Assembly (NCBI GenBank): GCA_016184105.1
Contig: JACPDI010000007.1
Location: 1-64,000, forward strand
DNA from: Acidobacteriota bacterium
GTDB taxonomy: Bacteria; Acidobacteriota; Vicinamibacteria; Vicinamibacterales; 2-12-FULL-66-21
DNA: 64,000 nt
Direction: 5' to 3'
Part shown: one piece after another, positions 13,974 to 30,250 of the stretch
Layout of the letters: every line of letters begins with the position of its first letter
Position numbering within the stretch: the first letter of the stretch is position 1
Notes under the pieces: model-generated
What the model was told of the DNA's origin: nothing
The model's database searches: none
The model's input: only the letters and a program-made list of their open reading frames with translations
Program-made: the position numbers and the translations under genes

Positions 13974-14036
13974 GGGCAGTGGGCAGTGGGCAGTGGGCAG
14001 TGGGCAGTGGGCAGTGGGCAGTGACCAGAGGCCAGG
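13974..14036. repeat. heptanucleotide tandem array, 7 x GGGCAGT plus two degenerate units
   Basis: Seven perfect GGGCAGT units (13974-14022) are followed in register by GACCAGA and GGCCAGG, so nine units keep CAG at the same place with an exact 7-bp period. The array fills the space between the palindromic promoter element and the ATG of the M1 peptidase at 14041. Confidence 0.95.
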
Positions 14037-14040
14037 TACG

Positions 14041-15963
14041 ATGATTGAGCGACTGCTGGTGAGCGGTGGAGTGATCCTGGCCGTGGCGGCGCCGGTCGCG
14101 CAGGAGGCGGCCCCCGGGGCGCTTTCGCCGCGTAACGCCAGCTACACGATCGCCGCGCGGCTCGATCCCGCGCGACGGACGATCGACGGCACCGAGCGCA
14201 TTGCGTGGCGCAACATCACGGCGTCTGCAACAGGCGAGCTGCAGTTCCACCTGTACTGGAACGCCTGGCGCGACACGCGTTCGAGCTGGATGCGCGAGCG
14301 CCTGCTTGCCGGCGGACGCGACCTGGCAGACCGCCCGCCGCAGGACCGCGCGTCGATGGACATCTCGTCGATTGCCGTCAACGGCACCACGCTCCCCTTC
14401 ACCTACATCGCGCCCGGCGACGGGAACACGGACGACCGGACGGTGATTCGTGTCGCCCTGCCGGCCGCGGTACCGCCGGGGGGCGCGGCGGACATCCGCG
14501 TCACCTGGCGCGCCCACGTGCCGCGCACGTACGCGCGCACGGGCGCCATCGCGGACTACTTTTTCCTCGCGCAGTGGTTTCCGAAACTTGGCGTCCTGCA
14601 GGACACCGGCTGGAACTGTCACCAGTTCCACGCCGCGACCGAGTTCTTCTCCGACTTCGGCACGTACGACGTGAGCCTCACGGTGCCAGACGGCTGGATT
14701 GTCGGCGCCACCGGGCGAGAGCAGAGCCGCAAGGCGAACGGCGACGGCACCGCGACGCACCGCTACCGCCAGGACGACGTGCACGACTTCGCCTGGACGA
14801 CGAGCCCGGACTACGTGGAGTTCAGGCAGACGTTCCGGCACGCGACGCTTCCCGCGGTGGAGATGCGCCTCCTGCTGCAACCCGAACACAAGGGGCAGGA
14901 GCAGCGTCACTTCGACGCGACGATCGCCGCGCTGCGGTATTACGGCGAATGGTACGGCGCGTATCCGTACGGCCACGTGACGGTGATCGATCCGGCCTGG
15001 CAGAGCGGCGCCGGAGGGATGGAGTACCCGACGCTCTTCACCGCCGGGTCGCGGTGGATGGCCCCGCGCGGCGTGGCCTCGCCCGAAGGGGTGACGGTGC
15101 ACGAGGCCGGCCACCAGTTCTGGTACGGCATTGTCGCGAACAACGAGTTCGAGCACGCGTGGCTCGACGAGGGGTTCAACACCTTCTCCACGGCGCGCGC
15201 GATCGAGCAGGCCTTCACGCCCAACTACCTGGCGGAACGCTACTTCGGCGGGTTCGTGCCGTGGGTGTTCCGCGACATCGCGATCTCGCGGGCGACCGAC
15301 GGGAACCGCCTCGGCGGCTATCGTTCGGCCGCACGCATGGACGCGCAGATCACGCCGACGTTTCGCTATTGGCCGCCCACCGCGGGCGCGATCACGTACA
15401 ACAAGACCGCGACCTGGCTGCACACGCTCGAGCGGCTCCTGGGCTGGGACACGCTGCAGACGATCATGACGACCTACTTCCAGCGCTGGGCGTTCCGGCA
15501 CCCCACTCCGGAGGATTTCTTCGCGGTGGCCAACGAGGTGAGCGGGCGGGACCTGACGTGGTTTTTCGATGAGGCGGTGCGCGGATCGCACGTGTTCGAT
15601 TACGGCATCCAGCTGCTCAGGAGCGAGCACGACCGGGAGCGCGACCGGCACGACACGGTCGTCGCCGTCCGCCGCTATGGAGAGGCGATCTTCCCCGTTG
15701 ACGTGCTCGTGACGTTCGAGGACGGCAGCACGGCGCGCGAGCGCTGGGACGGACGCGACCGCTGGACGATGTATCGCTACACGCGGGCGGCGAAGGCGAA
15801 GCAGGCGGTGGTGGATCCGGATCGCGTGCTGCTGCTGGATCTCAACTACACCAACAACAGCCGCACGCTGGTGCCGCGCGCCGGGGAAGCGTCGCGGAAG
15901 TGGATGCTCACGTGGGTGGCGTGGGCGCAGGATCTGCTCATGACGTACGGGTTTTTCGTATGA
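14041..15963 (+). CDS. M1-family zinc metallopeptidase (aminopeptidase N-like)
   Basis: This 640-residue secreted peptidase has a short signal peptide (about 1-21) and an M1 catalytic domain. The zinc site is complete: His354-Glu355-x-x-His358 in HEAGHQFWYG and Glu377 in WLDEGFN, the HExxH-x18-E spacing of the family. The exopeptidase-type substrate motif appears as GAGGMEYPTLF (GxMEN variant). It should remove N-terminal residues from peptides in the periplasm or outside. The start at 14041 is the first codon after the heptad array; in-frame codons upstream lie inside the repeat. The stop overlaps the start of the next gene (ATGA). Confidence 0.95.
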   Translation: MIERLLVSGGVILAVAAPVAQEAAPGALSPRNASYTIAARLDPARRTIDGTERIAWRNITASATGELQFHLYWNAWRDTRSSWMRERLLAGGRDLADRPPQDRASMDISSIAVNGTTLPFTYIAPGDGNTDDRTVIRVALPAAVPPGGAADIRVTWRAHVPRTYARTGAIADYFFLAQWFPKLGVLQDTGWNCHQFHAATEFFSDFGTYDVSLTVPDGWIVGATGREQSRKANGDGTATHRYRQDDVHDFAWTTSPDYVEFRQTFRHATLPAVEMRLLLQPEHKGQEQRHFDATIAALRYYGEWYGAYPYGHVTVIDPAWQSGAGGMEYPTLFTAGSRWMAPRGVASPEGVTVHEAGHQFWYGIVANNEFEHAWLDEGFNTFSTARAIEQAFTPNYLAERYFGGFVPWVFRDIAISRATDGNRLGGYRSAARMDAQITPTFRYWPPTAGAITYNKTATWLHTLERLLGWDTLQTIMTTYFQRWAFRHPTPEDFFAVANEVSGRDLTWFFDEAVRGSHVFDYGIQLLRSEHDRERDRHDTVVAVRRYGEAIFPVDVLVTFEDGSTARERWDGRDRWTMYRYTRAAKAKQAVVDPDRVLLLDLNYTNNSRTLVPRAGEASRKWMLTWVAWAQDLLMTYGFFV

Positions 15964-17024
15964 CAGAGGCCGGAGGCCAGAGGCTGGAGGCCAGGTTCGG
16001 CATCCTTTCGTGCTGGCGGGATGGCGCGCGGCGGGTCACCGGCGCGCCGTCAATCGTCTTCGGCGTCTGGGCGCTGTCGCTGCTGCTCGCGCTTCCGCTC
16101 GGCGTCGTCCTCCGCGGCTTGATCCGCGATTCGCTCGGCAGCAGCCTCGCCGCCGATGCGGCGGCGGAGGGCGTGAACTACGACTGGTGGAACGAATTCC
16201 TCCAGGCCACCGGCGGGATCGGCACGACGTTCGTTCCGTCGATCATCGGCTTCGCCGCGCCGCTCCGGAACCTCAGTGACGTGATGGACAACGTGCCGCT
16301 CGCGGCCACGCTGACCTCGGTGGTCGTCGCGTGGCTCGTCGTGTGGGCGCTCATCGCCGGCGGCGTGTTCGACCGGTACGCGCGCGCCCGCACCACGCAC
16401 ACGCCCGCGTTTTTCGCGGCGTGCGGCGTCTTCTTTTTCCGCTTCCTGCGGCTGGGCGCGATCGCGGCCTTCGCCTACTGGCTGCTCTTCCGCTTCGTGC
16501 ACGGGTGGCTGTTCGTGTCGGTGTACCCGCGCTGGACGAGGGACCTCCCGGTCGAGCGCGACGCCTTCTTCATCCGCCTCGGCCTCTATCTCGTCTTCGC
16601 CGCGCTCCTCGCGCTCGTCAACATCGTCATCGACTACGCGAAGGTGCGCGCCGTCGTGGAGGACCGGCGGTCGATGATCGGCGCGATCGCGGCAGGCGCG
16701 CGGTTCGTGGCCCGCCACCCGCGGGCGGCGGTGGGCCTGTACGTGCTCAACACGCTGGTGTTCGTTGCCGTGCTCGTCGCGTATCGGCTCGCCGCCCCCG
16801 GCGCGGAATGGCGCGGCCCGGGCATGTGGGTGGCCTTCGCGATCGCGCAGGCGTACATCGTCGCGCGCGTGTGGGCGAAGCTCGTGTTCGCGGCGTCCCA
16901 AATCGCGCTGTTCCAGTCGCGCCTGGCGCATGCGGGCTACGCCGCGCTCCCCGAACAGCGCGCGCTGGAACCGCCGATCGTCGAGGCGCTGGGCCCCGCG
17001 CCCGCCCCGCCGCCGCGGGTCTAA
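15960..17024 (+). CDS. polytopic membrane protein of unknown function
   Basis: This 354-residue protein has about six transmembrane segments (near 30-50, 105-130, 145-170, 200-225, 250-275 and 290-315) and a Pro-rich C-terminal end. It resembles uncharacterised Acidobacteria membrane proteins without enzymatic motifs. The ATG overlaps the M1 peptidase TGA by 4 bp, implying translational coupling. Codons 2-13 are written by a degenerate heptad repeat (15963-15997), so the extreme N-terminus is probably not conserved and the original start may lie downstream. Confidence 0.75.
15963..15997 (+). repeat. degenerate heptad repeat inside the 5' end of a gene
   Basis: Five units of 7 bp (ACAGAGG, CCGGAGG, CCAGAGG, CTGGAGG, CCAGGTT) follow each other in register. 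They supply the first codons of the membrane protein gene that starts at 15960. Confidence 0.8.
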
Positions 17025-17036
17025 ATTTAGGACGGG

Positions 17037-17071
17037 CGCCGGCCGAGCCGGCACGGGCCGGCGACTTTTTT
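17037..17071 (+). terminator. rho-independent terminator after the membrane protein gene
   Basis: CGCCGGCC (17037-17044) pairs with GGCCGGCG (17056-17063), followed by AC and six T. It sits 12 bp after the stop at 17024 and directly before the -10 element of the next gene. Confidence 0.8.
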
Positions 17072-17073
17072 GT

Positions 17074-17079
17074 TATCCT
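17074..17079 (+). promoter_or_regulatory. -10 element TATCCT of the HD-GYP response regulator gene
   Basis: TATCCT begins right after the T-run of the preceding terminator and 10 nt before the ATG at 17090. The upstream terminator stem therefore occupies the -35 region. Confidence 0.45.
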
Positions 17080-17089
17080 GCTGGTCTCC

Positions 17090-18133
17090 ATGCCGGATTT
17101 CGTGCAGAACGCGCGCATCCTGATGGTCGATGACGAGGAGCCGAACATCCGCGTGCTGTCGCGGACGCTCGTGCAGGCGGGATACCGCCACCTCTTCTCG
17201 ACGTGCGACTCGCGCGAAGCCCGCCAGCTCTACATCCGGCAGCGGCCGGATCTGATCCTGCTCGACCTCCACATGCCGCACCTGGACGGGTTCGAGGTGA
17301 TGGAGCAGCTGTCGCAGATCGCGGAAGCGACCTACCTGCCGATCCTGGTGATGACGGCGGACCTCGACCCCGAGACCAAGCAGCGCGCCCTGTCGATGGG
17401 CGCCAAGGACTTCGTCTACAAGCCGTTCGACCCGATCGAGGTGCAGCTCCGCATCCGGACGCTGCTCGAGACGCGCTTCCTCTACCTGCGCATCCAGTCG
17501 CAGAACCACATTCTCGAGGCGAAGGTGCGCGAGCGCACGCGCGCGCTCGAGGACGCGCAGATCGAGATCATCGAGCGGCTCGCGATGGCGGCCGAGTTCC
17601 GCGACGACAACACCGGCCAGCACACGCAGCGCGTGGGCCAGACCTCGGCGCTCGTGGCGCAGCAGCTCGGGTGGCCCGACACGCAGGTGAACCTGATCCG
17701 GCGCGCGGCGCCGCTGCACGACGTCGGGAAGATCGGCATCCCCGACACGATCCTGCTGAAGCCGGGAAAGCTCACCGAAGACGAGTTCGATCTGATCAAG
17801 ACCCACACGCTGATCGGCGCGCGCATTCTATCGGGCAGCCGCTTCCCGCTGCTGCAGATGGCGGAACAGATCGCGCTGTCGCACCACGAGCGCTGGGACG
17901 GCGGCGGCTACACGCCCGGGCTGAAGCAGGACTCCATCCCGCTGCCCGGCCGCATCGTCGCCGTGGCGGACGTGTTCGACGCGCTCATGCAGCAGCGCCC
18001 GTATAAGCCGGCCTGGCCGCTGTCCGAGGCGATCTCCGAAATCGAGCGGCAGCGCGGGCTGCAGTTCGACCCGCGCGTCGCGGAGGCGTTCCTTCGCGTG
18101 ATGGAATCGAGCCGGTCGCCGGTGACTTCCTGA
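17090..18133 (+). CDS. response regulator with HD-GYP domain (c-di-GMP phosphodiesterase)
   Basis: This 347-residue two-domain protein has a receiver domain (about 8-125) with acidic pair Asp14/Asp15, phospho-acceptor Asp59 in LILLDLHMP and Lys111 in KPF, joined by a helical linker to an HD-GYP domain (about 158-342). Catalytic residues are present: HD at 210-211 in [14 protein letters not shown] at 265-267 and D270-GGGY, where the usual GYP reads GYT. It should hydrolyse cyclic di-GMP under control of an unseen histidine kinase. Its TGA overlaps the ATG of the NAD synthetase gene by one base, a link with no obvious functional reason. Confidence 0.95.
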
Positions 18134-18897
18134 TGACCGACACAGCTGAACGTCTCGTGAAATGGCTGGACACGCAGCTCGCCGCCTCCGGCGCCCGCGG
18201 GTTCGTGGTGGGACTGAGCGGCGGGATCGACTCGGCCGTGGTGGCGCGATTGTGCCAGCTGGTGCGGCCAGACACGACGGTGTGCGTGCTGCTCCCGTGT
18301 CACAGCGACCCGCAGGACGAGGCGGACGCACGGCACGTCGCGGATCACTTCGCGCTGCCGGCGGTCCGGATCGATCTCGCGCCGGCCTACGACGCGCTGC
18401 TGCGCGGCGCGCGCGACGGCGTGGCCCCGCTCCTCGCGCTCGAGCACGAGCAGCATCCGCCGGATGACATCCGCGCGCGGCTGCCGGTCGCCAACCTCAA
18501 GCCGCGGCTGCGCATGACGACGTTGTATTTCGTGGCCAACACGTTCAACCACCTCGTGGTCGGCACCGGGAACCGCAGCGAGCTCACGATCGGGTACTTC
18601 ACGAAATACGGCGACGGCGGCGTGGACCTGCTGCCGCTCGCGAATCTGGTGAAGAGCCAGGTGCGCGCGCTGGCGCGCGAGCTGGGAGTGCCCGAGCGCG
18701 TAATCGACAAGCCGCCGAGTGCAGGGCTCTGGCTCGGGCAGACAGACGAGGCGGAGATGGGCTTCACGTACGCCGATCTCGAGCGGTATCTCAGCGACGG
18801 CGCCAGCTCTGTCCCCCCGGCGGTGGCGGTGAAGATCCAGCGGCTCGCGCGCGCGTCGGATCACAAGCGCGCGCCGACACCGGTGCCGGGGGAGTAG
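18133..18897 (+). CDS. nadE: ammonia-dependent NAD+ synthetase
   Basis: This 254-residue enzyme carries the ATP-pyrophosphatase P-loop SGGIDSAV (about residues 30-37) and the NAD synthase stretch VVGTGNRSELTIGYFTKYGDG with PLANLVKSQVRALARELGVP and PPSAGLWLGQTDEAEMGF. No glutaminase domain is present, so it belongs to the NH3-dependent class that adenylates and amidates deamido-NAD+. It overlaps the response regulator gene by one base and so is translationally coupled to it. The region between the P-loop and the NRSE motif is shorter than in some homologues but complete. Confidence 0.95.
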   Translation: MTDTAERLVKWLDTQLAASGARGFVVGLSGGIDSAVVARLCQLVRPDTTVCVLLPCHSDPQDEADARHVADHFALPAVRIDLAPAYDALLRGARDGVAPLLALEHEQHPPDDIRARLPVANLKPRLRMTTLYFVANTFNHLVVGTGNRSELTIGYFTKYGDGGVDLLPLANLVKSQVRALARELGVPERVIDKPPSAGLWLGQTDEAEMGFTYADLERYLSDGASSVPPAVAVKIQRLARASDHKRAPTPVPGE

Positions 18898-18931: not shown

Positions 18932-21661
18932 TCACAACCCCGCGCCAAGGACGGCGGGCTCGGTCTCCTGTCCGGCGAGCGCTTCCCGTGCCGGGCGCCA
19001 GAGGCGTTCGCGGGCGGCGAGCGCGGTCTCGCGCAGCCAGGCGTCGTCGCTCGCGAGCAGCGTCGTGATGGCGGCTTCCACCGAATCAATCTCCGCGCCG
19101 ACGAGGCGGTCCGCGAGCCTCACGCGCTGGTCCGCGGTGACCTGCGGGTCAATCAGCGGCAGCAGCAGCTGCGCGAGCGCCGGGGGCAGCGACCTCTCGA
19201 CAAACTCGACGGCGTTCGCGCGCACGGCGCGGTCCGCGGCGCTCACGCCGACGTACGCGCTTTCGAAATCCACGGCCGGCGCCAGGAGCGCGAGCAGCCG
19301 GAAGATGCGCTCGACCTCGTGTTCCATCGAGTGCCGCAGCCCCCTGACCACCTCCTCGCTCTCCTTCGCCTGTTCGATCGCCGCGAGCACCTGGTAAGAC
19401 CGGTAGTGCCCGGTAATCTCGGCGGCCAGCACCAGCTCGATCACGCCGGGATCGACTGTCGCGTCCGGATGCGCCAGCTGCAGCTTGTTGAGCGACGCGA
19501 TGATGCGGTAGCGCAGCGCCGCGTCTCCCTGCAGCAACGCATCGACCAGGACCTGCTCGGCAGCCGGCGTGCCGATGCGCGCGAGCACGATCGGCAGCTC
19601 GCGGCGCGCCTCGAGCGGCAGGCGCTCGTCGTGCAGCCCTGCCTTGATGTACGGCAGCGCGCGATCGCCGATGCGCGACAGGCCGTCGATGACGGCCGGC
19701 GCCGCGCCGGCGCTGGCCAGGTGCGGAATCAGCGACGGCGCCAGCGTGGCGCTCCCGAGCTTCCCCGCCGCCCGGGCGGCATGCGACAGGACGTCGGGGT
19801 CCTCTTCCTGCGCCGCGAGGAACAGCGGCAGCTCGTCCTCGAACGCCTCGGGCCGCAGCTCGACGAGCCGCGCCGCCTCGTGGCGCACCCGCGGCGCGTC
19901 CGCGCCGGTCTCGTCGATCATCGCGCGCAGGATCAGGCGCGCGGCATCCACGTTCTGCGCGGGTCCGGGCGCCGCCAGAAAGGCGGCGGTGCTGGCGCGG
20001 ATCGACAGGTCGGGGAACTCCTCCAGGTTTGAGATCGCGGCGAGCGGATCGAGCCGTCCATGGCGGCTCAGGTACAGCAGCGCCTCGGCTCGCGTTTCCA
20101 GGTCCGCGTCGTGCATCAGCAGCTCCACGTCCGATGCCGCGCCCGTGTCCCCCGACTCGTTGAGCAGGCGCAGCGCGCGGCGGCGGATGTCCGGGTTGTG
20201 GGCACGCAGCAGCGCGCGGAGCGCCGGCAGCGACTGGGCGTCGCGCTGCGCCTCGAGCGCGCCCAGCGCGTACAGCACCCGGGCTTCGTCCCTCGATCGC
20301 AGTTGGCCGTCGATCGCGAGCGCCCCGGTCCGCTCCACCGCGGCCGCGGCCGCGCGCTCCGTCTCGATCCGGTGATGGAGGATGCTCTCGCCGATCGCCG
20401 CCACGTACTCCGACCGGAGCCGCCAGGCCACGAACACCCACGCGGCCAGCACGACGGCGTTGATCGCGGCGGTGCCGCGCAAGCCCCACCCGAACCCACC
20501 GAGCCCGAAGAACCCCTTGGTCGCGATGCCCAGTATGACGGCGCCAATCGCATCCGCCACCCGGTTGACGACGATGTCGATCGCGGCGCGGATTTGCGAT
20601 CGGCCGCGCCCGGCGAGCGGCAGATACAGCAGCTCGTAGCTGGCCTTGTCGACCGAGAACCTGAGCCCCTGGTCCACGCCGAAGGTGAAGAGGACCGGCC
20701 AGAACACCGGGACGAGCAGGATCAGCCCGCTGCCCGAGAGGAGCGCGAGCGGCAGCAGCATCAGCGTGTAGGTCATGCCGAACCGGCGCAGCACGGGTCC
20801 GGTCAGGAACAACTGCATCGCGAACGCGGCGACGCCCAGCGACACGTTGAACCCGCTGAAGAAGGCGGTCAGGCGGTCGGCGTCGCCGCCATAGCGCGCG
20901 GTCGCCTCCATGCTGAACTGGAAGCCGATCCACTGGGTCGCGATCGCCACGAGGAACACCATCGCGGCGATCAGGCGCAGATACCGGCTGGAGGCGATGG
21001 TCTGGAGCGATCCGCGGAATGACGGCAGCGCCTGCCCGAGCGCGCTCGCGGCGGGCCGTCTGGGCATGCGACGCACCGCGGCGCTGACGATCAGGGCGGC
21101 CGCGGCAATCAGGACGGCGAGCACGAGGAGCAGGTTGACCGTGCCCCCCATCGGCCCAATCAGCAGCCGGCCGAGGGCGCCGCCGGCGATCCCTCCCAGC
21201 GACGCGCCCGCGCCGACCAGGCCGAACAGCCGCTTCGCCTGCCGCGTGTCGAACAGGGTGCTGACGAAGCTCCACGCCTGCACCGGCGCAATCACGCCGA
21301 AACAGTTCACCCAGACGTAGAAGATCGCCGGGAGGCTCCAGATGCGCGCGAAGGTAAACAGCGCCCAGAACAGCAGCACGTTGCCGCAGAAGAACCACAG
21401 GCTGAAGACGATCATCGCGCGCTGGCCGATGCGCCGGGCGACCCGGGCGGACAGCGGCACCAGCAGCGACAGCACGACCGGCACGGCCGCATACACGTAG
21501 ACGAGCGCGTACGGGCCGTAATCCTGCAGAAACAGGCCGTTTCGAACGGGCTTGGCCAGCAGGAACGACGCGACGACGACGGCGACGTAGACGAAACTGA
21601 AGACGACCGGGGCGAGCTCTCCGCGGCGGATGTCGAAGAACCGCCGTATCCGTGGCACCAT
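18932..21661 (-). CDS. NTT-like membrane transporter with HEAT-repeat C-terminal domain
   Basis: This 909-residue protein has an N-terminal domain of about 12 transmembrane helices (1-415) resembling the ATP/ADP translocase (NTT/TLC) fold: VSTLFDTRQAKRLFGLVGAGASLGGIAGG is the conserved cytoplasmic loop-helix. A large C-terminal helical repeat domain (about 440-890) is made of HEAT-like units (for example RSRDEARVLYALGAL, NPDIRRRALRLLNESGD, HLASAGAAPAVIDGLSRIGD). NTT proteins exchange nucleotides across the membrane in intracellular bacteria, but HEAT-fused versions occur in free-living ones with unknown cargo. It is divergent from a second, larger paralogue 50 bp away. Confidence 0.85.
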   Translation of the reverse strand: MVPRIRRFFDIRRGELAPVVFSFVYVAVVVASFLLAKPVRNGLFLQDYGPYALVYVYAAVPVVLSLLVPLSARVARRIGQRAMIVFSLWFFCGNVLLFWALFTFARIWSLPAIFYVWVNCFGVIAPVQAWSFVSTLFDTRQAKRLFGLVGAGASLGGIAGGALGRLLIGPMGGTVNLLLVLAVLIAAAALIVSAAVRRMPRRPAASALGQALPSFRGSLQTIASSRYLRLIAAMVFLVAIATQWIGFQFSMEATARYGGDADRLTAFFSGFNVSLGVAAFAMQLFLTGPVLRRFGMTYTLMLLPLALLSGSGLILLVPVFWPVLFTFGVDQGLRFSVDKASYELLYLPLAGRGRSQIRAAIDIVVNRVADAIGAVILGIATKGFFGLGGFGWGLRGTAAINAVVLAAWVFVAWRLRSEYVAAIGESILHHRIETERAAAAAVERTGALAIDGQLRSRDEARVLYALGALEAQRDAQSLPALRALLRAHNPDIRRRALRLLNESGDTGAASDVELLMHDADLETRAEALLYLSRHGRLDPLAAISNLEEFPDLSIRASTAAFLAAPGPAQNVDAARLILRAMIDETGADAPRVRHEAARLVELRPEAFEDELPLFLAAQEEDPDVLSHAARAAGKLGSATLAPSLIPHLASAGAAPAVIDGLSRIGDRALPYIKAGLHDERLPLEARRELPIVLARIGTPAAEQVLVDALLQGDAALRYRIIASLNKLQLAHPDATVDPGVIELVLAAEITGHYRSYQVLAAIEQAKESEEVVRGLRHSMEHEVERIFRLLALLAPAVDFESAYVGVSAADRAVRANAVEFVERSLPPALAQLLLPLIDPQVTADQRVRLADRLVGAEIDSVEAAITTLLASDDAWLRETALAARERLWRPAREALAGQETEPAVLGAGL

Positions 21662-21694
21662 AGAGGCGGCGCCCGCAATTTACCACGCCTGCGA

Positions 21695-21700
21695 TAGACT
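21695..21700 (+). promoter_or_regulatory. -10-like element TAGACT of the 1245-aa transporter gene
   Basis: TAGACT lies 11 nt before the ATG at 21712. On the opposite strand TAAATT (21677-21682) lies 15 nt before the divergent start at 21661, so each gene seems to have its own -10 within 50 bp. Confidence 0.3.
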
Positions 21701-21711
21701 GCGCGTGCTCC

Positions 21712-24700
21712 ATGCTCACGCGACTGCTCTCGCCCGTGGCCGAGCTCCGCGAGGAGGAAGGCACCACCGCGGTGCTGATGTTCGCCTACGCGCTGCTCGT
21801 GATGACGGCGTACAACATCCTCAAGCCGATCACCCGGTCGAAATTCATCTCCGACCTGGGCGCGGACAACCTGCCGTACGTCCTCATCGGCGCGGCGGTG
21901 CTCATCGGCGTCATCATGGCCGGCTACACGCGGCTGATGGGCCTGATGCCGAAGCGATGGGGGCTGCCGATCGTGCAGTTCTCCCTCGCCGTCGTGCTCG
22001 TCGCGTTCTGGTTCCTGTTCCGGACCGACGCCGAGTGGGTGTCGATCGCGTTTTACTTCCTCGGCCTGCTGCTCGGCATCCTCCTGATCAGCCAGTTCTG
22101 GACGCTCGCCAACGTCGTGTACGACGCCCGGCAGGCCAAGCGGCTCTTCGGGTTCATCGGCGGCGGCGCGCCGCTTGGCGGCATTCTCGGCTCGTTCATC
22201 CTCACGCGCTACGCGGGACGGATCGGGACGACGAACCTGCTGATCGTCAGCGGGGTCACGCTGAGCATCGCCGCCATCGTCGCCGCGATCATCATCGGCC
22301 GCGAGCGCAGGCAGGCCATCGACCTCTCGAGCGAGGAGGACACCGTCAGCAGCGGCGAGGCGCTGCGCCTGCTTCGCCGTTCGCGTCACCTCCAGATCAT
22401 CGCGCTCGTGATCAGCTTTGCCGCGATCGGTGCGGCGATCATCGAGCAGCAGCTGAACATGGCCGCCGAGGTGGCCAAGGGACAGCAGGCCACCGACGCC
22501 ATCACGGTGTTTCTCGGGAAGGTCCAGCTCTGGACCTCGTTCATCGGCTTCGTCATTCAGGTCTCGCTCACCAGCCGCATCCACCGGTTCCTGGGGATCG
22601 GCTTCGCGCTGATGATCCTGCCGGTCGGCCTCGGCACCAGCGCGCTGGTGATGCTGTTCAACCGTTCGCTGTGGGCGCCCGGCTTCGCGCGCGTGCTCGA
22701 CCAGTCGTTCCGGTACACCGTGGACAAGACGACGCGCGAGATCCTGTTCCTGCCGCTGCCGGGGGAGGTGAAGTACCGGGCGAAGCCGTTTGTGGACGTC
22801 ACCGTGGACCGGTTCGCCAAGGGCATTTCCGCCGCGCTGCTGCTCGTCCTGATCAAGCCGTGGGGCTTCGCCCTCGACTGGCAGCGTCTCTCCTATGCGA
22901 GCCTCGCCATCATGGCGCTGTGGATCGTGATGGCGCTGCGGGCGAAGCGGGAGTACCTCTCGGCGTTCCGGCGCAGCATCGAGCGGCGCGAGGTCGAGAC
23001 CGCCGAGCAGCGCCTGGTGGCGGCGGACCTCTCGACGGTCGAGACGCTCGTCGAGGAGCTGGCGCACCCCGACGAGCATCGCGTGTTGTACGCGATCGAC
23101 GTGCTCGAGTCGCTCGACAAGCGCAATCTCGTCACCCCGCTGCTCCTGCGGCACGAGTCTCCCGCGGTGCGCGCGCGAGCGCTGGGCGCGCTGGCCCGGA
23201 CGAAGCCGGAGACCGTGCGGCGATGGCAGCCGTCGGTCGAGCGGATGCTCGCGGACACCGACGCGGACGTGCGCGCCGCGGCGGTGGCGGCGCTCGCCGC
23301 GGGCCGGGGCGAATGTGCCGCCGACTTCGCCCGGCCGCTTCTGACCGATCCCGACCGCCACCTCGTCGTCACGGCCGCGACGGTCCTTGCCGACAGCGAC
23401 GAGCCGGCGGACGTGCGCGCGGCGGAAAGCGCGCTCGCCGCTGTCGCCGCCGACACGCGCGCGGAAGCGGCGCGCGCGCGGCGCGACGTCGCGGTCGCGC
23501 TCCGCCACATCGCCAACACCAGCTTCCGGCCGCTGCTCGTGCCGCTCCTCTACGACGGCGATGTGTCCGTCGCGGAAGAGGCGATGCGCTCGGTCGGCGC
23601 GCTCGGCACGAGCGAATTCATCTACCTGCCGACGCTCGTCGCGCTGCTGCGGAACCGGCGCCTGAAGGCGGCCGCACGCGACGTGCTCGTCGGCTACGGC
23701 CCCGAGGCGCTCGACCCGCTGGCGCATTTCCTCGCCGATCCCGACGAGGATCCGTGGGTGCGCCGGCACCTGCCCGCGGCTATCGCGCGCATCGGCACAC
23801 CGCGCGCGGTGGAGATTCTCGTCAGGGCGCTCGACGACCCGGACGGCTTCCTGCGTTACAAGGCCATACAGGCGCTGGAATGGCTTCGGCGCGAACGGCC
23901 CGGCCTGGCGTGCCCGCGGGAGCCGGTCGAGAAGCTGCTCGTTCGCGAGGCGCGTCATTACTTCGCGGCGCTCACCGCGCACGACAGTCTCTTCGTGCGG
24001 CAGCACGTGACCGGCGACGGGCTCCCGATCCTGGCGCGTGCGCTCGAGGAGAGGGCGCAGCGGACGCGCGACCGCATCTACCGCCTGCTGTCGCTCCTCT
24101 ACCCGTGGAAGGACGTGGACGCCGTGCGCTGGGCGCTGGCGCACGGCGACGCCCGCGCGAAGTCGAGCGCGTCGGAGTACTTGGACAACGTGCTGACGGG
24201 CGCCGTGCGGAAGGCCGTGATGCCGGCGCTCGAGGCGCTGCCGCGCGAGGAAACCATCCGCCGTGGCTACGTGCTGCTGCGCTCCCGGCCGCGCGCCACC
24301 GAAGAGACGCTGCTCGAGCTCATCAACGACGAGGACCCGGTCATCGCTGCCTGCGCGATCGATCTCGTCAGCGAGATCGGCGAATGGAGGTTGAAGGACG
24401 ACATCGAGCACGTGCTCGCGCACCGCGACGTGCGCGACTGGTACGTGTTCGAGTCCGCCTCGTGGACGCTCGCGGTCCACCGCGTGGGGAACGCGCGGCG
24501 GCAGGAGCTGTGGCGCGAGCCGCTGCCCGCCACGGTACTGGCCTCGCGGCTGCGGAAGTTGCCGTTGTTTGGATCGGTCTGGATCGACGAGCTGTTTCGG
24601 CTGGCGAGCACCGGCCGGCAGTTGCGCCAGGAGGCGGCGCGCACGCTGCTGCAGGAAGGCAGCGCGCCCGAGGCGGTGCACATCCTCCTGGAGGGGCAGG

Positions 24701-25449
24701 TCGTCTGCCGCCGGCGCGGCGCGCCGGACGAGGCCGTCCAGGCGCCGGCCGCGCTCGGCCTGCGCGAAACCCTCGAAGGACGCGCGGCGGCGGCAACCGT
24801 CCGCACGGAAAGCGCCGCGGTCACGCTGGTGCTGCCGCCCGAGGACGTGCGCACGCTCATCGCCGACAACCAGGACCTGATCGACGGGCTGCTCCGCACG
24901 CTTGCAGGCGAGGAACTGACCGGCGACACGCGCCGCCTCATCGTCCGCGGCGGCGCGCCCGCGGATCTGCTGGCGCTTGGCGCCGGTGGCGTGCTGCCGG
25001 TGGAGAAGGTGCTGCTGCTGCAGCGGCTGCCGCTCTTCTCGATGGTGTCAGCCGACCAGATGCTGTACGTGGCGGCGATCGCGAAAGAGCGGGCGCTCGA
25101 GGCGGGCAAGGAGGTGGCGGCGGAAGGAGAGGCCCCGGCGATCTACTACGTGCTCGACGGCGAGCTGTCCGCGGTCCCCTCCGCGCAGGACCCGCGGGAT
25201 CCGGGGGCGCGGAGCCTGCCCCAGCCCGCGGCTCCAGGGGACGCGGTCGGGATCTTCGAGACGCTCGCCGGTCGGCCGATCGGCCGCACGCTGCACGCCG
25301 CGCGCGACGGCGTCGCGCTCAAGATCGACCGTGACGACTTGATCGATCAGCTCGGTCATCATCCGGCGCTGGCGCAGCAGGTGTTCGCGTCGCTGTTCGA
25401 TCTGATCGATCGCGGAGAGGGAAAAGGGGGACAGTCACACTTTTCGTAG
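21712..25449 (+). CDS. NTT-like transporter with HEAT repeats and two cNMP-binding-like domains
   Basis: This 1245-residue protein has three parts. Residues 1-420 are an NTT/MFS-like membrane domain (TLANVVYDARQAKRLFGFIGGGAPLGGILGS matches the loop of its divergent neighbour). Residues about 435-940 are HEAT repeats. Residues about 955-1065 and 1105-1225 are two regions like cyclic-nucleotide-binding domains (ILLEGQVVCRRRG; IYYVLDGELSAVP, GDAVGIFETLAG). The phosphate-binding cassette is poorly conserved in both, so ligand binding is uncertain. The last residues (KGGQSHFS) and the TAG stop are written by a hairpin repeat element at 25420-25485, so the original C-terminus has been replaced or extended. 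No nearby gene reveals the cargo. Confidence 0.85.
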   Translation: MLTRLLSPVAELREEEGTTAVLMFAYALLVMTAYNILKPITRSKFISDLGADNLPYVLIGAAVLIGVIMAGYTRLMGLMPKRWGLPIVQFSLAVVLVAFWFLFRTDAEWVSIAFYFLGLLLGILLISQFWTLANVVYDARQAKRLFGFIGGGAPLGGILGSFILTRYAGRIGTTNLLIVSGVTLSIAAIVAAIIIGRERRQAIDLSSEEDTVSSGEALRLLRRSRHLQIIALVISFAAIGAAIIEQQLNMAAEVAKGQQATDAITVFLGKVQLWTSFIGFVIQVSLTSRIHRFLGIGFALMILPVGLGTSALVMLFNRSLWAPGFARVLDQSFRYTVDKTTREILFLPLPGEVKYRAKPFVDVTVDRFAKGISAALLLVLIKPWGFALDWQRLSYASLAIMALWIVMALRAKREYLSAFRRSIERREVETAEQRLVAADLSTVETLVEELAHPDEHRVLYAIDVLESLDKRNLVTPLLLRHESPAVRARALGALARTKPETVRRWQPSVERMLADTDADVRAAAVAALAAGRGECAADFARPLLTDPDRHLVVTAATVLADSDEPADVRAAESALAAVAADTRAEAARARRDVAVALRHIANTSFRPLLVPLLYDGDVSVAEEAMRSVGALGTSEFIYLPTLVALLRNRRLKAAARDVLVGYGPEALDPLAHFLADPDEDPWVRRHLPAAIARIGTPRAVEILVRALDDPDGFLRYKAIQALEWLRRERPGLACPREPVEKLLVREARHYFAALTAHDSLFVRQHVTGDGLPILARALEERAQRTRDRIYRLLSLLYPWKDVDAVRWALAHGDARAKSSASEYLDNVLTGAVRKAVMPALEALPREETIRRGYVLLRSRPRATEETLLELINDEDPVIAACAIDLVSEIGEWRLKDDIEHVLAHRDVRDWYVFESASWTLAVHRVGNARRQELWREPLPATVLASRLRKLPLFGSVWIDELFRLASTGRQLRQEAARTLLQEGSAPEAVHILLEGQVVCRRRGAPDEAVQAPAALGLRETLEGRAAAATVRTESAAVTLVLPPEDVRTLIADNQDLIDGLLRTLAGEELTGDTRRLIVRGGAPADLLALGAGGVLPVEKVLLLQRLPLFSMVSADQMLYVAAIAKERALEAGKEVAAEGEAPAIYYVLDGELSAVPSAQDPRDPGARSLPQPAAPGDAVGIFETLAGRPIGRTLHAARDGVALKIDRDDLIDQLGHHPALAQQVFASLFDLIDRGEGKGGQSHFS

Positions 25450-25490: not shown

Positions 25491-27155
25491 TCACTTCCGC
25501 GCCCCCGGCAGCTCCCCCAGCCGCTCGATGCCGACCGTCTGCCACGCGGCGCCGCTCTTCCTGAAGTACACGCGTGTCGGGCGCCGCCAGCCCGGATAGT
25601 CGCGCGACACGGCGCGCAGCGAGAGCGCGACGTACTCGGATCCCGCGAGCTCCTGCGGCAGCATCCCCCGCCCGGCGCTCAACGTCTGCTCGCCCCCCAC
25701 CTCCGCGTGCTCCCCCGTCGCGTTGTCGAAGCGATACCACGACAGCAGGTACTGCATCCCCGGAGACACGAGCCCCGCCGCGGCGGCGGTGTTCTCAAAG
25801 GTGAGCGACCCGTCCGCGGCCATCGCGAACCGATCGACCGGCAGCACCTTCGTGAGCCACGCGCGCACCACCTTGTCGCGCCGCTCGATCAGCGTCCGCG
25901 TGATGTACTCGGTGGCGCGCGGATCGCTGTAGCGCGCCTTCTCCACGATCTTCCGGATCGTCGCGTCCGAGAACTTCGACACGATCTTCGCCCCCCAGTA
26001 CGCATCGTCATCACGGAGGTTGCGGAAGGCGGGGTTGGGGTATTCGGGCTTCCAGCGCTCGGGGTTGAACGCCGACGCCTCGAATCGTCCTACCGACGGA
26101 GGGACGCCCGGATAGTCAATCAGCAGCCACGGCCTGACGTACAACCCGAGGGTGGACAGCGTGAGGAACGCCTGCTTCCAGTCGAGGATGTACTCGTTGC
26201 CGGCGCGGGGCGTCTGCGCGAAGGCGGTGCCGCTCCCCATGATCGACCCGAAGTCGAACATGTAGTGCTTCACGTAGCGGCGGCCGTTCGCGGTCTCGAG
26301 CATGTCGAGGCTGTTCACGCCGCGCGAGTCGTCGTGGTTCAGCCACGCGGCGAACACGGCGGCGCCGCGCAGCTCGCGACGGTGCTCGTGCGGGAAGATG
26401 TCATTGGGATCGTCCGGCCGCGTGCCGTAGTAGCGGAAGTGCCCCAGCGGTCTGCCGTCGGCGAACCGGCTCGCGAGCGCGCGGTACCGGCCGTTCGGCA
26501 GCCGCGCCGCGCGGCGCAACAGGTCGTCCAGGTCCGCACGCCTGAACGCACGCCGCCGGCCGCCGAGATCCATGATGGTGGCCTTCGGCGAGATCGTCGC
26601 CCGCTCGGGATCGAACTCCACGACGTACACGTCCACCACGTTGTAGCCGAAGGCGTGATAGAACTCGGTGCCGATCACTTCGGCGCCGGTGGCCATCTCC
26701 GGATTGGCCGGCGGATCGAATTCAATCTGGTAAATCTTCCCGCTGGCGGGATCGGCCACCCGGAATCCGGGCTGCAGCCCCTCACCCTTGTCGCGCACGA
26801 TCGGCCAGCCGTCGATCGACAGGCGCGCCACGCGGTCCGGCCCCCGCACGATTTCCTCGTCATCCATCGGCCGGACGCCGATGCGGTTGGTGAACCAGCT
26901 CGAGTCCGGCACCTCGTCGATGGTGTTGACGTTCACCGCCTTCACGTCGGCTTCCTCGCCCGGCGTGAAGAACGTGTTCTCGACGAAGTCGTAGTAGTCG
27001 CTCGCCTCGATCTCCGCCGCGATCGCCACGTCGACCGCGCGATCGTCGTCACGCGCGATGGGATCGTCGGGATAGAACACCGGCGGGGCGCCACGGGCCG
27101 CCATCGATCCGGCGAGCACGCCGACGAGGAGGAGGGCGGCGCGCTTAGAACACAT
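25491..27155 (-). CDS. secreted protein with kinase-like motifs, unknown family
   Basis: This 554-residue protein has a signal peptide (about 1-22). Its centre shows what looks like a remote kinase-fold active site: an Asp-Pro strand IYQIEFDPP (141-149), a helix with Glu159 in TGAEVIGTEFYHAFGYNV, a loop N273-HDDSRGV-N281 like the HipA/FAM20 catalytic loop, and D301-FGS like the metal-binding DFG. A Lys is not seen at the expected beta-3 position (Glu145). It starts 11 bp before the end of the Omp85-like gene, so the two are coupled, suggesting an outer-membrane-linked role. Members seem common in Acidobacteria but I know of no function; kinase activity is inference. Confidence 0.75.
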   Translation of the reverse strand: MCSKRAALLLVGVLAGSMAARGAPPVFYPDDPIARDDDRAVDVAIAAEIEASDYYDFVENTFFTPGEEADVKAVNVNTIDEVPDSSWFTNRIGVRPMDDEEIVRGPDRVARLSIDGWPIVRDKGEGLQPGFRVADPASGKIYQIEFDPPANPEMATGAEVIGTEFYHAFGYNVVDVYVVEFDPERATISPKATIMDLGGRRRAFRRADLDDLLRRAARLPNGRYRALASRFADGRPLGHFRYYGTRPDDPNDIFPHEHRRELRGAAVFAAWLNHDDSRGVNSLDMLETANGRRYVKHYMFDFGSIMGSGTAFAQTPRAGNEYILDWKQAFLTLSTLGLYVRPWLLIDYPGVPPSVGRFEASAFNPERWKPEYPNPAFRNLRDDDAYWGAKIVSKFSDATIRKIVEKARYSDPRATEYITRTLIERRDKVVRAWLTKVLPVDRFAMAADGSLTFENTAAAAGLVSPGMQYLLSWYRFDNATGEHAEVGGEQTLSAGRGMLPQELAGSEYVALSLRAVSRDYPGWRRPTRVYFRKSGAAWQTVGIERLGELPGARK

Positions 27156-28380
27156 GGCCGAACTTGATGAAGTAGCGTTTGCCGTCGCGGCTGCCGAACG
27201 CGGCGTCGACGCGCAGGAACACGCCGCGGTTGGTGCCGAAGCGGAACCCGAACCCGTAGTCGCTCTGAAGGTCGTCGATATCGAGGCCGGACGGGCGCGG
27301 CGCCACCTTGCCCGCGTCGTAGAACAACGCCGCGTCGAGCGCGGGCAGGATCTCCCACCGGTACTCCGCCTGGAGCAGCAGCAGGTTGCGATCGCGGAAG
27401 CGGTAATCGCGGAAGCCGCGCAGCGTCGTGCTGCCGCCGAGCGTCTGCTGGAAGTAGAACGGCACGTCGCGGCCCGGCGGCGTATCGGACAGCGACGCGA
27501 GCGCGCGGAACACCAGGACGCGGCGGTCCTTGAGGAACGGGACGTACTGGCGGACGTCGATGTCGAACCTGTTGAACGTGTAGCGGCCGGTGGAGCGATC
27601 GCTGAAACGGGAGACCGCCGCCGTGTAGCGGCCGCCGTGCCGGGGGTTGCCGGACGGCGTGGCGTAGTTCAGATCCAGCGACGCCCGCGACATCAGGAAA
27701 TCGGGCTGCGCGGCCAGGCCCGGCGCGGTCGCATCGTCGAAGCGCGCTTCGATCGATGGCATCAGCGTGTCCTTGCCGCCCGCGACGCCCGGCATGAGGT
27801 ACTCGACCCGCGCCTCGCCGTGCAGCGCCGGCACCAGGTCGAACCCGGCGAACGCGCCCACGGCGCCCTCTTTGTACGTGTAGTTGACGCGATCCGGCCG
27901 GTGCGAGCCGGGCCCGATCCCGAAAAAGTCCTCCTGCGGAAAATATTTCCGCCGCACCAGCGCGCCTATCTGCACGCGCGTGTCGGCCAGCCGCGGCGCG
28001 ACAACCGAGCCCTGGGCCAGCAGGTACCGGCGGTGCGACAACACGGCGAACCCGTTCACGTCGATGGCGCCGCCGGCAAGCCGCCGCAGGCGGACGCCCG
28101 GGCCGAGCCCGAATCCCGCGCCGGTGGTGATGCCACCGAATTTCAAGTAGTAGCGCCCGTTACCGATGCTGAGCCAGTCCTCGAGGATGCGATCGTTCTC
28201 GAGCTTTTCGATCCACGTTTCCAGGTTGCCCGGCTTGTAGGGGGTGACCCGCTGCGCCTTCGCTTCGCGCGTGGCGCGGAGCGCCGCCTCGCGCGTTGCC
28301 GGCGGCGGCTCCTGGCCGGAGGCCTCGGCCGGCATGACGAGCACGGCCCCGAGCGCGCACCATGCGATCGCGGCCAGCAT
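27145..28380 (-). CDS. Omp85/BamA-like outer-membrane surface antigen
   Basis: This 411-residue protein has a signal peptide (about 1-22), a short alpha/beta stretch and a 16-strand-type barrel typical of the bacterial surface antigen (D15) family. The strand GGSTTLRGFRDYRFRD (about 308-323) is the conserved VRGF/Y-type L6 motif and the protein ends ...FIKFGHVF with a terminal Phe. Few or no POTRA domains fit before the barrel, so it is a short Omp85 member rather than BamA itself. It begins 4 bp after transketolase and overlaps the next gene by 11 bp. The start at 28380 is chosen for the signal peptide. Confidence 0.85.
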   Translation of the reverse strand: MLAAIAWCALGAVLVMPAEASGQEPPPATREAALRATREAKAQRVTPYKPGNLETWIEKLENDRILEDWLSIGNGRYYLKFGGITTGAGFGLGPGVRLRRLAGGAIDVNGFAVLSHRRYLLAQGSVVAPRLADTRVQIGALVRRKYFPQEDFFGIGPGSHRPDRVNYTYKEGAVGAFAGFDLVPALHGEARVEYLMPGVAGGKDTLMPSIEARFDDATAPGLAAQPDFLMSRASLDLNYATPSGNPRHGGRYTAAVSRFSDRSTGRYTFNRFDIDVRQYVPFLKDRRVLVFRALASLSDTPPGRDVPFYFQQTLGGSTTLRGFRDYRFRDRNLLLLQAEYRWEILPALDAALFYDAGKVAPRPSGLDIDDLQSDYGFGFRFGTNRGVFLRVDAAFGSRDGKRYFIKFGHVF

Positions 28381-28384
28381 GATG

Positions 28385-30250
28385 TCAGGGGGCCTGCACC
28401 GCCACAAGGCTGCGGACCTTGTCGGCGATCGCCCGCGCCGAGATGCCGAAGCGATCGAGCAGCTCGTCGGGCCTGCCGCTGCGCGGCACCTCGCGGATGC
28501 CGAGGCGGTGGACGGTGATGCCCTCGGGAGACACGGCCTCGCTCACCGCGTCGCCGAGGCCGCCATGAATGTAGTGATCCTCGACCGTCACGATCGTATT
28601 GCGCGTGGCGCGGCCGCAGCGCACGAGGGTGGCCTCATCGATCGGCTGCACCGAGTAGGCGTCGATCACGCGCGCGCGAATCCCCTCCGTCGCGAGGACG
28701 TCGTGGGCCTTGAGCGCCTCGAAGACCGTCACGCCGGCCGCCACGATCGTGATCGCATCATCGCCGGATTCGCGCAGCACCTTGGACCCGCCAATCGGGA
28801 ACGTCTCGCCCGATTCATAAATGACCGGCGTCTTCGGCCGGGTCGTCCGGATGTAGGCAGGGCCCGCCGTGTATGCGGCGAGCGCGACGAGGCGCTCGGT
28901 GCTGACGGCATCGGACGGGTACAGCACGTGGCAATTCGGAACGGCCCGCATCATCGCCAGGTCCTCGAGCGCCATCTGCGACGGCCCGTCCTCGCCGATC
29001 GACACGCCGGCGTGCGAGCCGGCGAGCTTCACGTTGAGGTCCGAGATGCCGAGCATGCGGACGAAGTCCGCCGCGCGCGACAGGAAGCACGCGAACGTGG
29101 ACGGAAACGGGATCGCGCCACGCGCGGCGAGCCCCATGGCGGCGCCCACCATCACCTGCTCGGCGATGAACATCTGGTAGAAGCGATCCGGGCTTTCCCT
29201 TTCGAAGCGATCGCTGAATGTCGAGTTCTTGACGTCGGCATCGAGCGCCACCACGCGCGAATCGATGCGGGCGAGGGCGGCCAGCGCGGTGCCGTAGGCC
29301 TCGCGCGTCGCCACCTCCTGCCCCATCTTGTAGGCGGGCGGCGGCATCAGACCCGGATTGCCAACCTTCTCGGCGGGCGCGGCCGGCGCGGCCGGCGATG
29401 CGGGTGGTTCGGCCTTCGGCGCTCCCGTGATGAGCTGCGCCTCGAGCTCTCTCACGGCGCCGTCCGCCTCGTCGCCTTTCCTGAGCGGCTTGCCGTGCCA
29501 GTTGTCTTTGTCCTCGAACAGGCTGACGCCTTTGCCCTTCAGCGTGCGCGCCAGGATCATCGTGGGCCGGCCCTTCTGCGCGCGCGCGTCGCGCAGGGCG
29601 TCAAGCAACGCCTGGAGATCGTGGCCGTCCACCTCGAGGGCATGCCAGCCGAACGCGCGCCATCGCTCGGCGAGCGGGCGCGGGTCGTGGCCCCACGGCG
29701 TCGGGCGGCTCTGGCCGTACGCGTTCACGTCGGTGATACCGCACAGGTTGTCCAGCTTGAAGTGCGCTGCGGCTTGCGCCGCCTCCCAGACCGAACCCTC
29801 GGAGGACTCACCGTCGCCGAGCAGCATGTACGTGCGGTAATCCGACTTGATGCGGCGCGCGTTGAGCGCGGTGCCCACCGCCGCGCACGCCCCCTGGCCG
29901 AGCGAGCCGGTCGCCACGTCCACGAAACTCAGCCTCGGCGTCGGATGTCCCTCGAGATCGGAGCCGATCTCGCGCAGCGTCTTCAGCTGCTCGCGGGGGA
30001 ACAGCCCCGCTTGCGCCCATGCGGCGTACAGGATCGGCGCCGCATGCCCCTTCGACAGCACGAGGCGATCGTTGTGCGGGTCCCGCGGGTTGCGGGGGTC
30101 GTAGCGCATCTCGGCGAAGAAGAGCGCCGCCATGATTTCGGCTGCTGACAGGCACGTCGTCGGGTGACCGCTGCCGGCCTGCGTCGTTGAACGGATCGAA
30201 TCGATCCGAAGCTCGGTGGCGATATTTCTCAGGGTATCAATCGAGTTCAT
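28385..30250 (-). CDS. tkt: transketolase
   Basis: This 621-residue complete transketolase transfers two-carbon ketol units in the pentose phosphate pathway using thiamine diphosphate. The N-terminal domain has STTQAGSGHPTTCLSAAE, the ThDP/Mg motif GDGESSEGSVWEA and KGKGVS; the pyrimidine-binding domain has IAEQVMVGAAMGLAARG and the C-terminal domain follows. The length is closer to the short (animal-like) type than to the 660-residue enterobacterial type, with an Ala/Pro linker (about 290-315) between domains. The ATG at 30250 overlaps the stop of the DUF255 gene (ATGA), so the enzyme is translated from an operon that continues into two envelope genes. Confidence 0.96.
   Translation of the reverse strand: MNSIDTLRNIATELRIDSIRSTTQAGSGHPTTCLSAAEIMAALFFAEMRYDPRNPRDPHNDRLVLSKGHAAPILYAAWAQAGLFPREQLKTLREIGSDLEGHPTPRLSFVDVATGSLGQGACAAVGTALNARRIKSDYRTYMLLGDGESSEGSVWEAAQAAAHFKLDNLCGITDVNAYGQSRPTPWGHDPRPLAERWRAFGWHALEVDGHDLQALLDALRDARAQKGRPTMILARTLKGKGVSLFEDKDNWHGKPLRKGDEADGAVRELEAQLITGAPKAEPPASPAAPAAPAEKVGNPGLMPPPAYKMGQEVATREAYGTALAALARIDSRVVALDADVKNSTFSDRFERESPDRFYQMFIAEQVMVGAAMGLAARGAIPFPSTFACFLSRAADFVRMLGISDLNVKLAGSHAGVSIGEDGPSQMALEDLAMMRAVPNCHVLYPSDAVSTERLVALAAYTAGPAYIRTTRPKTPVIYESGETFPIGGSKVLRESGDDAITIVAAGVTVFEALKAHDVLATEGIRARVIDAYSVQPIDEATLVRCGRATRNTIVTVEDHYIHGGLGDAVSEAVSPEGITVHRLGIREVPRSGRPDELLDRFGISARAIADKVRSLVAVQAP

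Follow-up and report, generated by a model that had tools for sequence, protein, structure and literature searches.

Why would an acidobacterium that is probably free-living keep, back to back, two large proteins of the nucleotide transporter (NTT) family, both extended by HEAT repeats and one of them also by regions resembling cyclic nucleotide-binding domains (cNBD)? A preliminary description of this locus pictured a heteromer that senses nucleotides and moves a compound across the membrane. The window analyzed here (the whole stretch of DNA, 64,000 nucleotides) lies in a 4.24-Mb draft genome; among named relatives, MAGs of Acidobacteria, Terriglobia and Vicinamibacterales come closest to it. 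purF, aspartate carbamoyltransferase and atpA were all detected above cut-off in this genome. Synthesis of nucleotides and ATP by the host itself is thus probable and import is not obligatory; energy parasitism is disfavoured by the genome size and by these biosynthesis genes.

Two full-length paralogues of the NTT-HEAT type

The coordinates and lengths first given for the two genes (gene A, 909 residues; gene B, 1245 residues) were exact, and the layout of the locus is summarized in Table 1. When the proteins were compared to Pfam, TLC (PF03219) was matched with 52.4 bits by A and 43.3 bits by B (cut-off 21), and HEAT_2 with 41.5 and 88.3 bits respectively, all above cut-off. Every one of the 31 domains taken from orthologues and paralogues matched the TLC profile (E <= 0.01), and profile comparison with NTT1 of the PDB gave E=1e-32 and 1.3e-28. 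Both proteins also match the TIGR00769 model of NTP/NDP exchange transporters, but with 54.3 and 37.6 bits they remain far below its curated cut-off of 387.2, so that this model gives no ground for calling either of them an NTP/NDP exchanger.

AlphaFold2 models, built on an alignment of nine sequences only, had a mean pLDDT of 82 for A and of 74 for B (residues 1–1199, where the model ends). Each comprises twelve long membrane helices followed by a HEAT solenoid, to which B adds a beta-roll at about residues 969–1041; the second cNBD of B is poorly modelled. In A, the 12 predicted TM helices span about residues 16–420 and the HEAT repeats about residues 440–895. In Foldseek searches of the PDB, the structures of Arabidopsis NTT1 (AtNTT1) and Chlamydia pneumoniae NTT1 (PDB 9j3j, 9j3l, 9j3m, 9j3n, 9j3o) occupied ranks 1–5 for A and 1–3 for B, and other MFS proteins (NorA, VMAT) ranked below them. 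An MFS-only fold unrelated to NTT, the result that could have overturned the family assignment, was therefore not what we found; NTTs are themselves MFS-like, so that resemblance to MFS proteins is compatible with NTT membership. A and B have in common with AtNTT1 and C. pneumoniae NTT1 the MFS-type 12-TM fold, the EAKR/QAKR loop and the E..(Y/F).PL and ID....R motifs, whereas they differ from them by the added HEAT tails and, in B, the cNBDs, identity being 15–19% in structural alignment. SLC9C1-type exchangers, which appear in the Foldseek list of B, also join a transporter to a cytosolic cNBD, but with TM-scores of about 0.1 and an unrelated transporter family they provide a loose analogy only. 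Together, sequence profiles and fold agree on the NTT membership of both proteins, and profile matches and predicted models agree on their HEAT tails, in line with the preliminary description.

The two genes had been said to share a DARQAKRLFG loop and a HEAT tail. An equivalent loop is indeed present in each protein, but its exact form occurs in B only, A having DTRQAKRLFG. Since its counterpart in NTT1 of Chlamydia and Arabidopsis is the EAKRFY..FG loop, it is a family signature and nothing peculiar to the pair. The HEAT tails are likewise present in both, but the kinship is wider, A and B being about 29% identical over their whole length including the HEAT part, as full-length paralogues. 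Within the TM domain, the motifs RQAKR.FG, DKT.RE.LFLPL and K.F.DV..DR are strongly conserved.

Table 1. Positions in the window of genes A and B and of their domains.
Feature	Coordinates	Strand	Evidence
Gene A, NTT-HEAT protein, 909 aa	18932..21661	-	profile matches + AlphaFold model
Gene A TLC/NTT transmembrane domain, residues 1-430; Asp370 = AtNTT1 K527 position	20372..21661	-	
Gene A HEAT-repeat tail, residues 431-909	18932..20371	-	
A/B intergenic region, 50 bp, between divergent start codons	21662..21711	.	
Gene B, NTT-HEAT-cNBD-cNBD protein, 1245 aa	21712..25449	+	profile matches + AlphaFold model
Gene B TLC/NTT domain, residues 1-430; Glu245 = E385 position, Lys370 = K527 position	21712..23001	+	
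Gene B HEAT-repeat region, ~residues 431-934	23002..24513	+	
Gene B degenerate cNMP-binding domain 1, ~residues 952-1053, beta-roll predicted	24565..24870	+	
Gene B degenerate cNMP-binding domain 2, ~residues 1127-1214	25090..25353	+	

Major, Embley and Williams reported NTT-HEAT and NTT-HEAT-cNBD fusions in 2017 (PMC5381601), and their text already describes the fusion architectures, the monophyly of NTT-HEAT and its wide distribution. The domain order given there (NTT, HEAT, C-terminal cNBD) is that of B, and NTT-HEAT is that of A; in both of our proteins an NTT domain is followed by HEAT, and B has the full NTT-HEAT-cNBD arrangement. NTT-HEAT fusions are widespread in bacteria and occur in Chlamydia trachomatis and, with cNBD, in oomycetes (PMC5381601, PMC6995639), a duplicated cNBD is reported for oomycetes and Bacilli, and Acidobacteria contribute 3 sequences to the 2017 taxon table (PMC5381601). 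A and B are thus no new kind of protein, and the locus is less novel than first implied, although the pair itself is real. The divergent paralogue pair, the division into Asp and Lys at the K527 position and the loss of cNBD ligand residues are absent from the main text of PMC5381601; neither the conserved divergent pairing nor the charge reversal at a key transport residue seems to have been described before. No functionally characterised NTT-HEAT fusion was found in PMC5381601 and PMC6995639, and a full-text search of the later literature turned up a single paper that mentions NTT-HEAT, which assigns it no function.

Conservation of the divergent pair

We surveyed 193 genomes of the class, with identity thresholds of at least about 44% for B and at least about 35% for A and hand counting from match tables. 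Both genes were present in 39 genomes, A only in 5, B only in 22 and neither in 127; many of these genomes are drafts, so that absences are soft. B therefore accompanies A in 39 of the 44 A-positive genomes (odds ratio of co-occurrence 45, relatedness uncorrected). The two genes are adjacent and divergent in 33 of the 39 genomes that have both, with a start-to-start gap of 25–185 bp in 22 measured pairs. As for the other six, A and B lie on different contigs in four genomes, all of family f2 (G044, G064, G065, G066), and two are fragments. The expectation that the two genes co-occur was thus borne out, and a lack of co-occurrence, which could have discredited the pair, was not seen. Over 11 genomes, distances of A and B correlated at 0.94, versus 0.79–0.80 with the neighbouring peptidase, which is suggestive only. 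A promoter scan gave no sigma-70-type match in the 50-bp A/B intergenic region. B was found without A in 22 of the 61 B-positive genomes of the class and A-type proteins are present alone in other classes, showing that neither gene strictly needs the other; one genome that is about 100% complete (L096) has B in the same neighbourhood and no A.

Several other arrangements were observed. In G043 (L074 6140–13572), A is missing and the locus consists of a back-to-back pair of B-type genes, about 100 bp apart, with strand signs plus then minus (convergent-looking or divergent order). In G340, from another class, an A-like gene and B have the same divergent order with an ORF between them (L121 7259–8713, about 485 codons, with a signal-peptide-like stretch). 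In G169 (contig C49 5821–7115), only C-terminal parts of A and B are left and these adjoin each other, as though both N-terminal halves had gone in a single deletion or been lost through faulty assembly.

Upstream of the pair (window 13993–18897) lies a block, conserved in part, of genes for an M1 peptidase, a membrane protein, an HD-GYP response regulator and NAD synthase. The M1 peptidase and membrane protein are kept more widely than nadE and look like plain synteny. nadE was rejected as a clue to NAD transport because it occupies this place in no family but that of the window (L005/L075, L073, L102, L106, L107). Downstream of B (25491–28407) are two genes on the minus strand. The first encodes an unassigned 554-aa protein that matches nothing in Pfam, the other a protein with an Omp85 domain; both have relatives close to B in several other genomes (L074, L097, L099), the 554-aa protein also in L076.

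In a quick IQ-TREE search restricted to the sequences found in this analysis, the A side grouped together with an SH-aLRT of 99, and the B proteins formed a second clade (100). The A partners did not come out as strictly monophyletic; they fell into two neighbouring lineages, with three other members of the phylum beside the second. Judging from this tree, one ancestral pairing is likely, not proven.

Transport residues and cNMP-binding domains

AtNTT1 has four important charged residues, K155, E245, E385 and K527 (PMC3306366, PMC10654386), and for K527 a connection with the transport of triphosphates has been reported (PMC4256464). In the alignment, the chain of the AtNTT1 structure keeps a constant offset of 84, which places all four residues on the expected letters. 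K155 and E245 were kept in none of 30 A orthologues and none of 39 B orthologues. The E385 position was acidic in 2 of the 30 A proteins and in all 39 B proteins (Glu 25, Asp 14); the K527 position was Asp in 30/30 A proteins and basic in 39/39 B proteins (Lys 37, Arg 2). Of the four residues that mark ATP/ADP-type NTTs, B has only two (E385 and K527) and A, as a rule, none, which sets the pair apart from AtNTT1 and C. pneumoniae NTT1. With two of the four charges absent from B and nearly all from A, classical ATP/ADP exchange by the pair is not supported. One or more of the four residues are also absent in some NTTs (PMC4256464, PMC10654386), so that their loss is no proof against nucleotide transport.

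Among 21 further proteins of this kind from the phylum, the 9 on the A side all had Asp at the K527 position and the 12 on the B side had Lys (6), Arg (3), Thr (2) or Gln (1). Throughout the phylum, this D-type/K-type split agrees with the tree and hence marks an old division of NTT-HEAT proteins. By its residues and its place in the tree, the acidobacterial locus pairs one D-type and one K-type of these anciently split paralogues. A third, single-domain NTT-family protein is encoded in the same genome (P0003; L002, G000 contig C37, ~70741), with Asp at the K527 position and Glu retained at the E385 position.

Two stretches of B match cNMP_binding (PF00027), with 46.1 bits together; singly they score 28.3 and 26.5 bits for a cut-off of 27.5, one above and one below. 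Both were found in 10 of 10 B orthologues scanned, and Pfam detected no cNBD in A. Ligand-binding cNBDs of the CRP/PKA type possess a phosphate-binding cassette with a conserved Gly-Glu and an Arg. In the alignment of 39 B orthologues, inspected by eye, the cassette Glu has mostly given way to other residues, many of them hydrophobic, and the Arg shows no conservation, which makes canonical binding of cAMP or cGMP by these domains unlikely. The two regions of B are thus degenerate, as first described, and the nucleotide sensing that had been attributed to them is not supported. Control by cyclic AMP was also considered, one guanylate-cyclase-family protein being present in the genome, but was rejected given the same missing ligand residues.

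Possible roles of the pair

The explanation that we favour, and to which we give about an even chance, is that A and B are a co-inherited and probably co-acting pair of inner-membrane transporters, in which anion transport is more likely the task of B, with A as its specialised partner. It is based on the family, the predicted fold, the pairing and the residue pattern. A and B would be anciently diverged NTT-HEAT paralogues of the inner membrane, each a transporter with a predicted MFS fold of 12 TM helices, whose HEAT superhelix would lie in the cytosol. As the two genes are passed on together in divergent orientation and have a short upstream region in common, they are probably co-expressed and would act in one process. 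Since B keeps the equivalents of E385 and K527 and not those of K155 and E245, it would most likely carry an anionic metabolite, whether phosphorylated or of another sort, and not act as a classical ATP/ADP exchanger. A, which is without the four charges and has Asp in place of the triphosphate-linked Lys, could transport a different substrate or be a non-canonical partner subunit of B. The cNBD folds of B have probably turned into modules for assembly or regulation, in which cyclic nucleotides are not bound in the usual manner.

A and B might also be two independent transporters, specialised for different substrates after duplication, that have only a regulatory region in common and make no contact. 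The charge reversal at the substrate site, the many B-only genomes, the A-type proteins standing alone in other classes and the unlinked genes of the four f2 genomes all fit this possibility, which nevertheless appears doubtful to us in view of the tight divergent linkage in 33 of 39 genomes and the rarity of A without B within the class. That the pair scavenges extracellular nucleotides by classical ATP/ADP or NTP exchange, as energy parasites do, is very unlikely despite its NTT membership and the E385 and K527 equivalents retained by B: K155 and E245 are missing from 69 of 69 sequences, A is without nearly all four residues, and the size and gene content of the genome make a supply of its own probable. 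NTT-derived receptors or scaffolds that transport nothing, with the membrane domain as sensor and the HEAT/cNBD tail as output, would account for the large cytosolic tails, the lost canonical transport residues and the cNBD folds deprived of their usual ligand residues; strong conservation of the TM signature motifs, as expected for a working transporter core, makes such a role highly improbable.

Taken further, the favoured transporter pair could be a regulated two-subunit NTT heteromer, composed of a Lys subunit and its Asp paralogue, that moves a metabolite new to the family. We consider this unlikely. To our knowledge, there is no earlier heteromeric NTT and no function has been assigned to NTT-HEAT fusions; if true, the heteromeric Lys/Asp pair would be the first of the former and would give the latter their first function. 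The pair offers two points of attack, namely the existence of a partner gene and a single site at which A and B are oppositely charged. Through the residue at this K527 position and through each gene, the role of the large NTT-HEAT branch could be approached directly.
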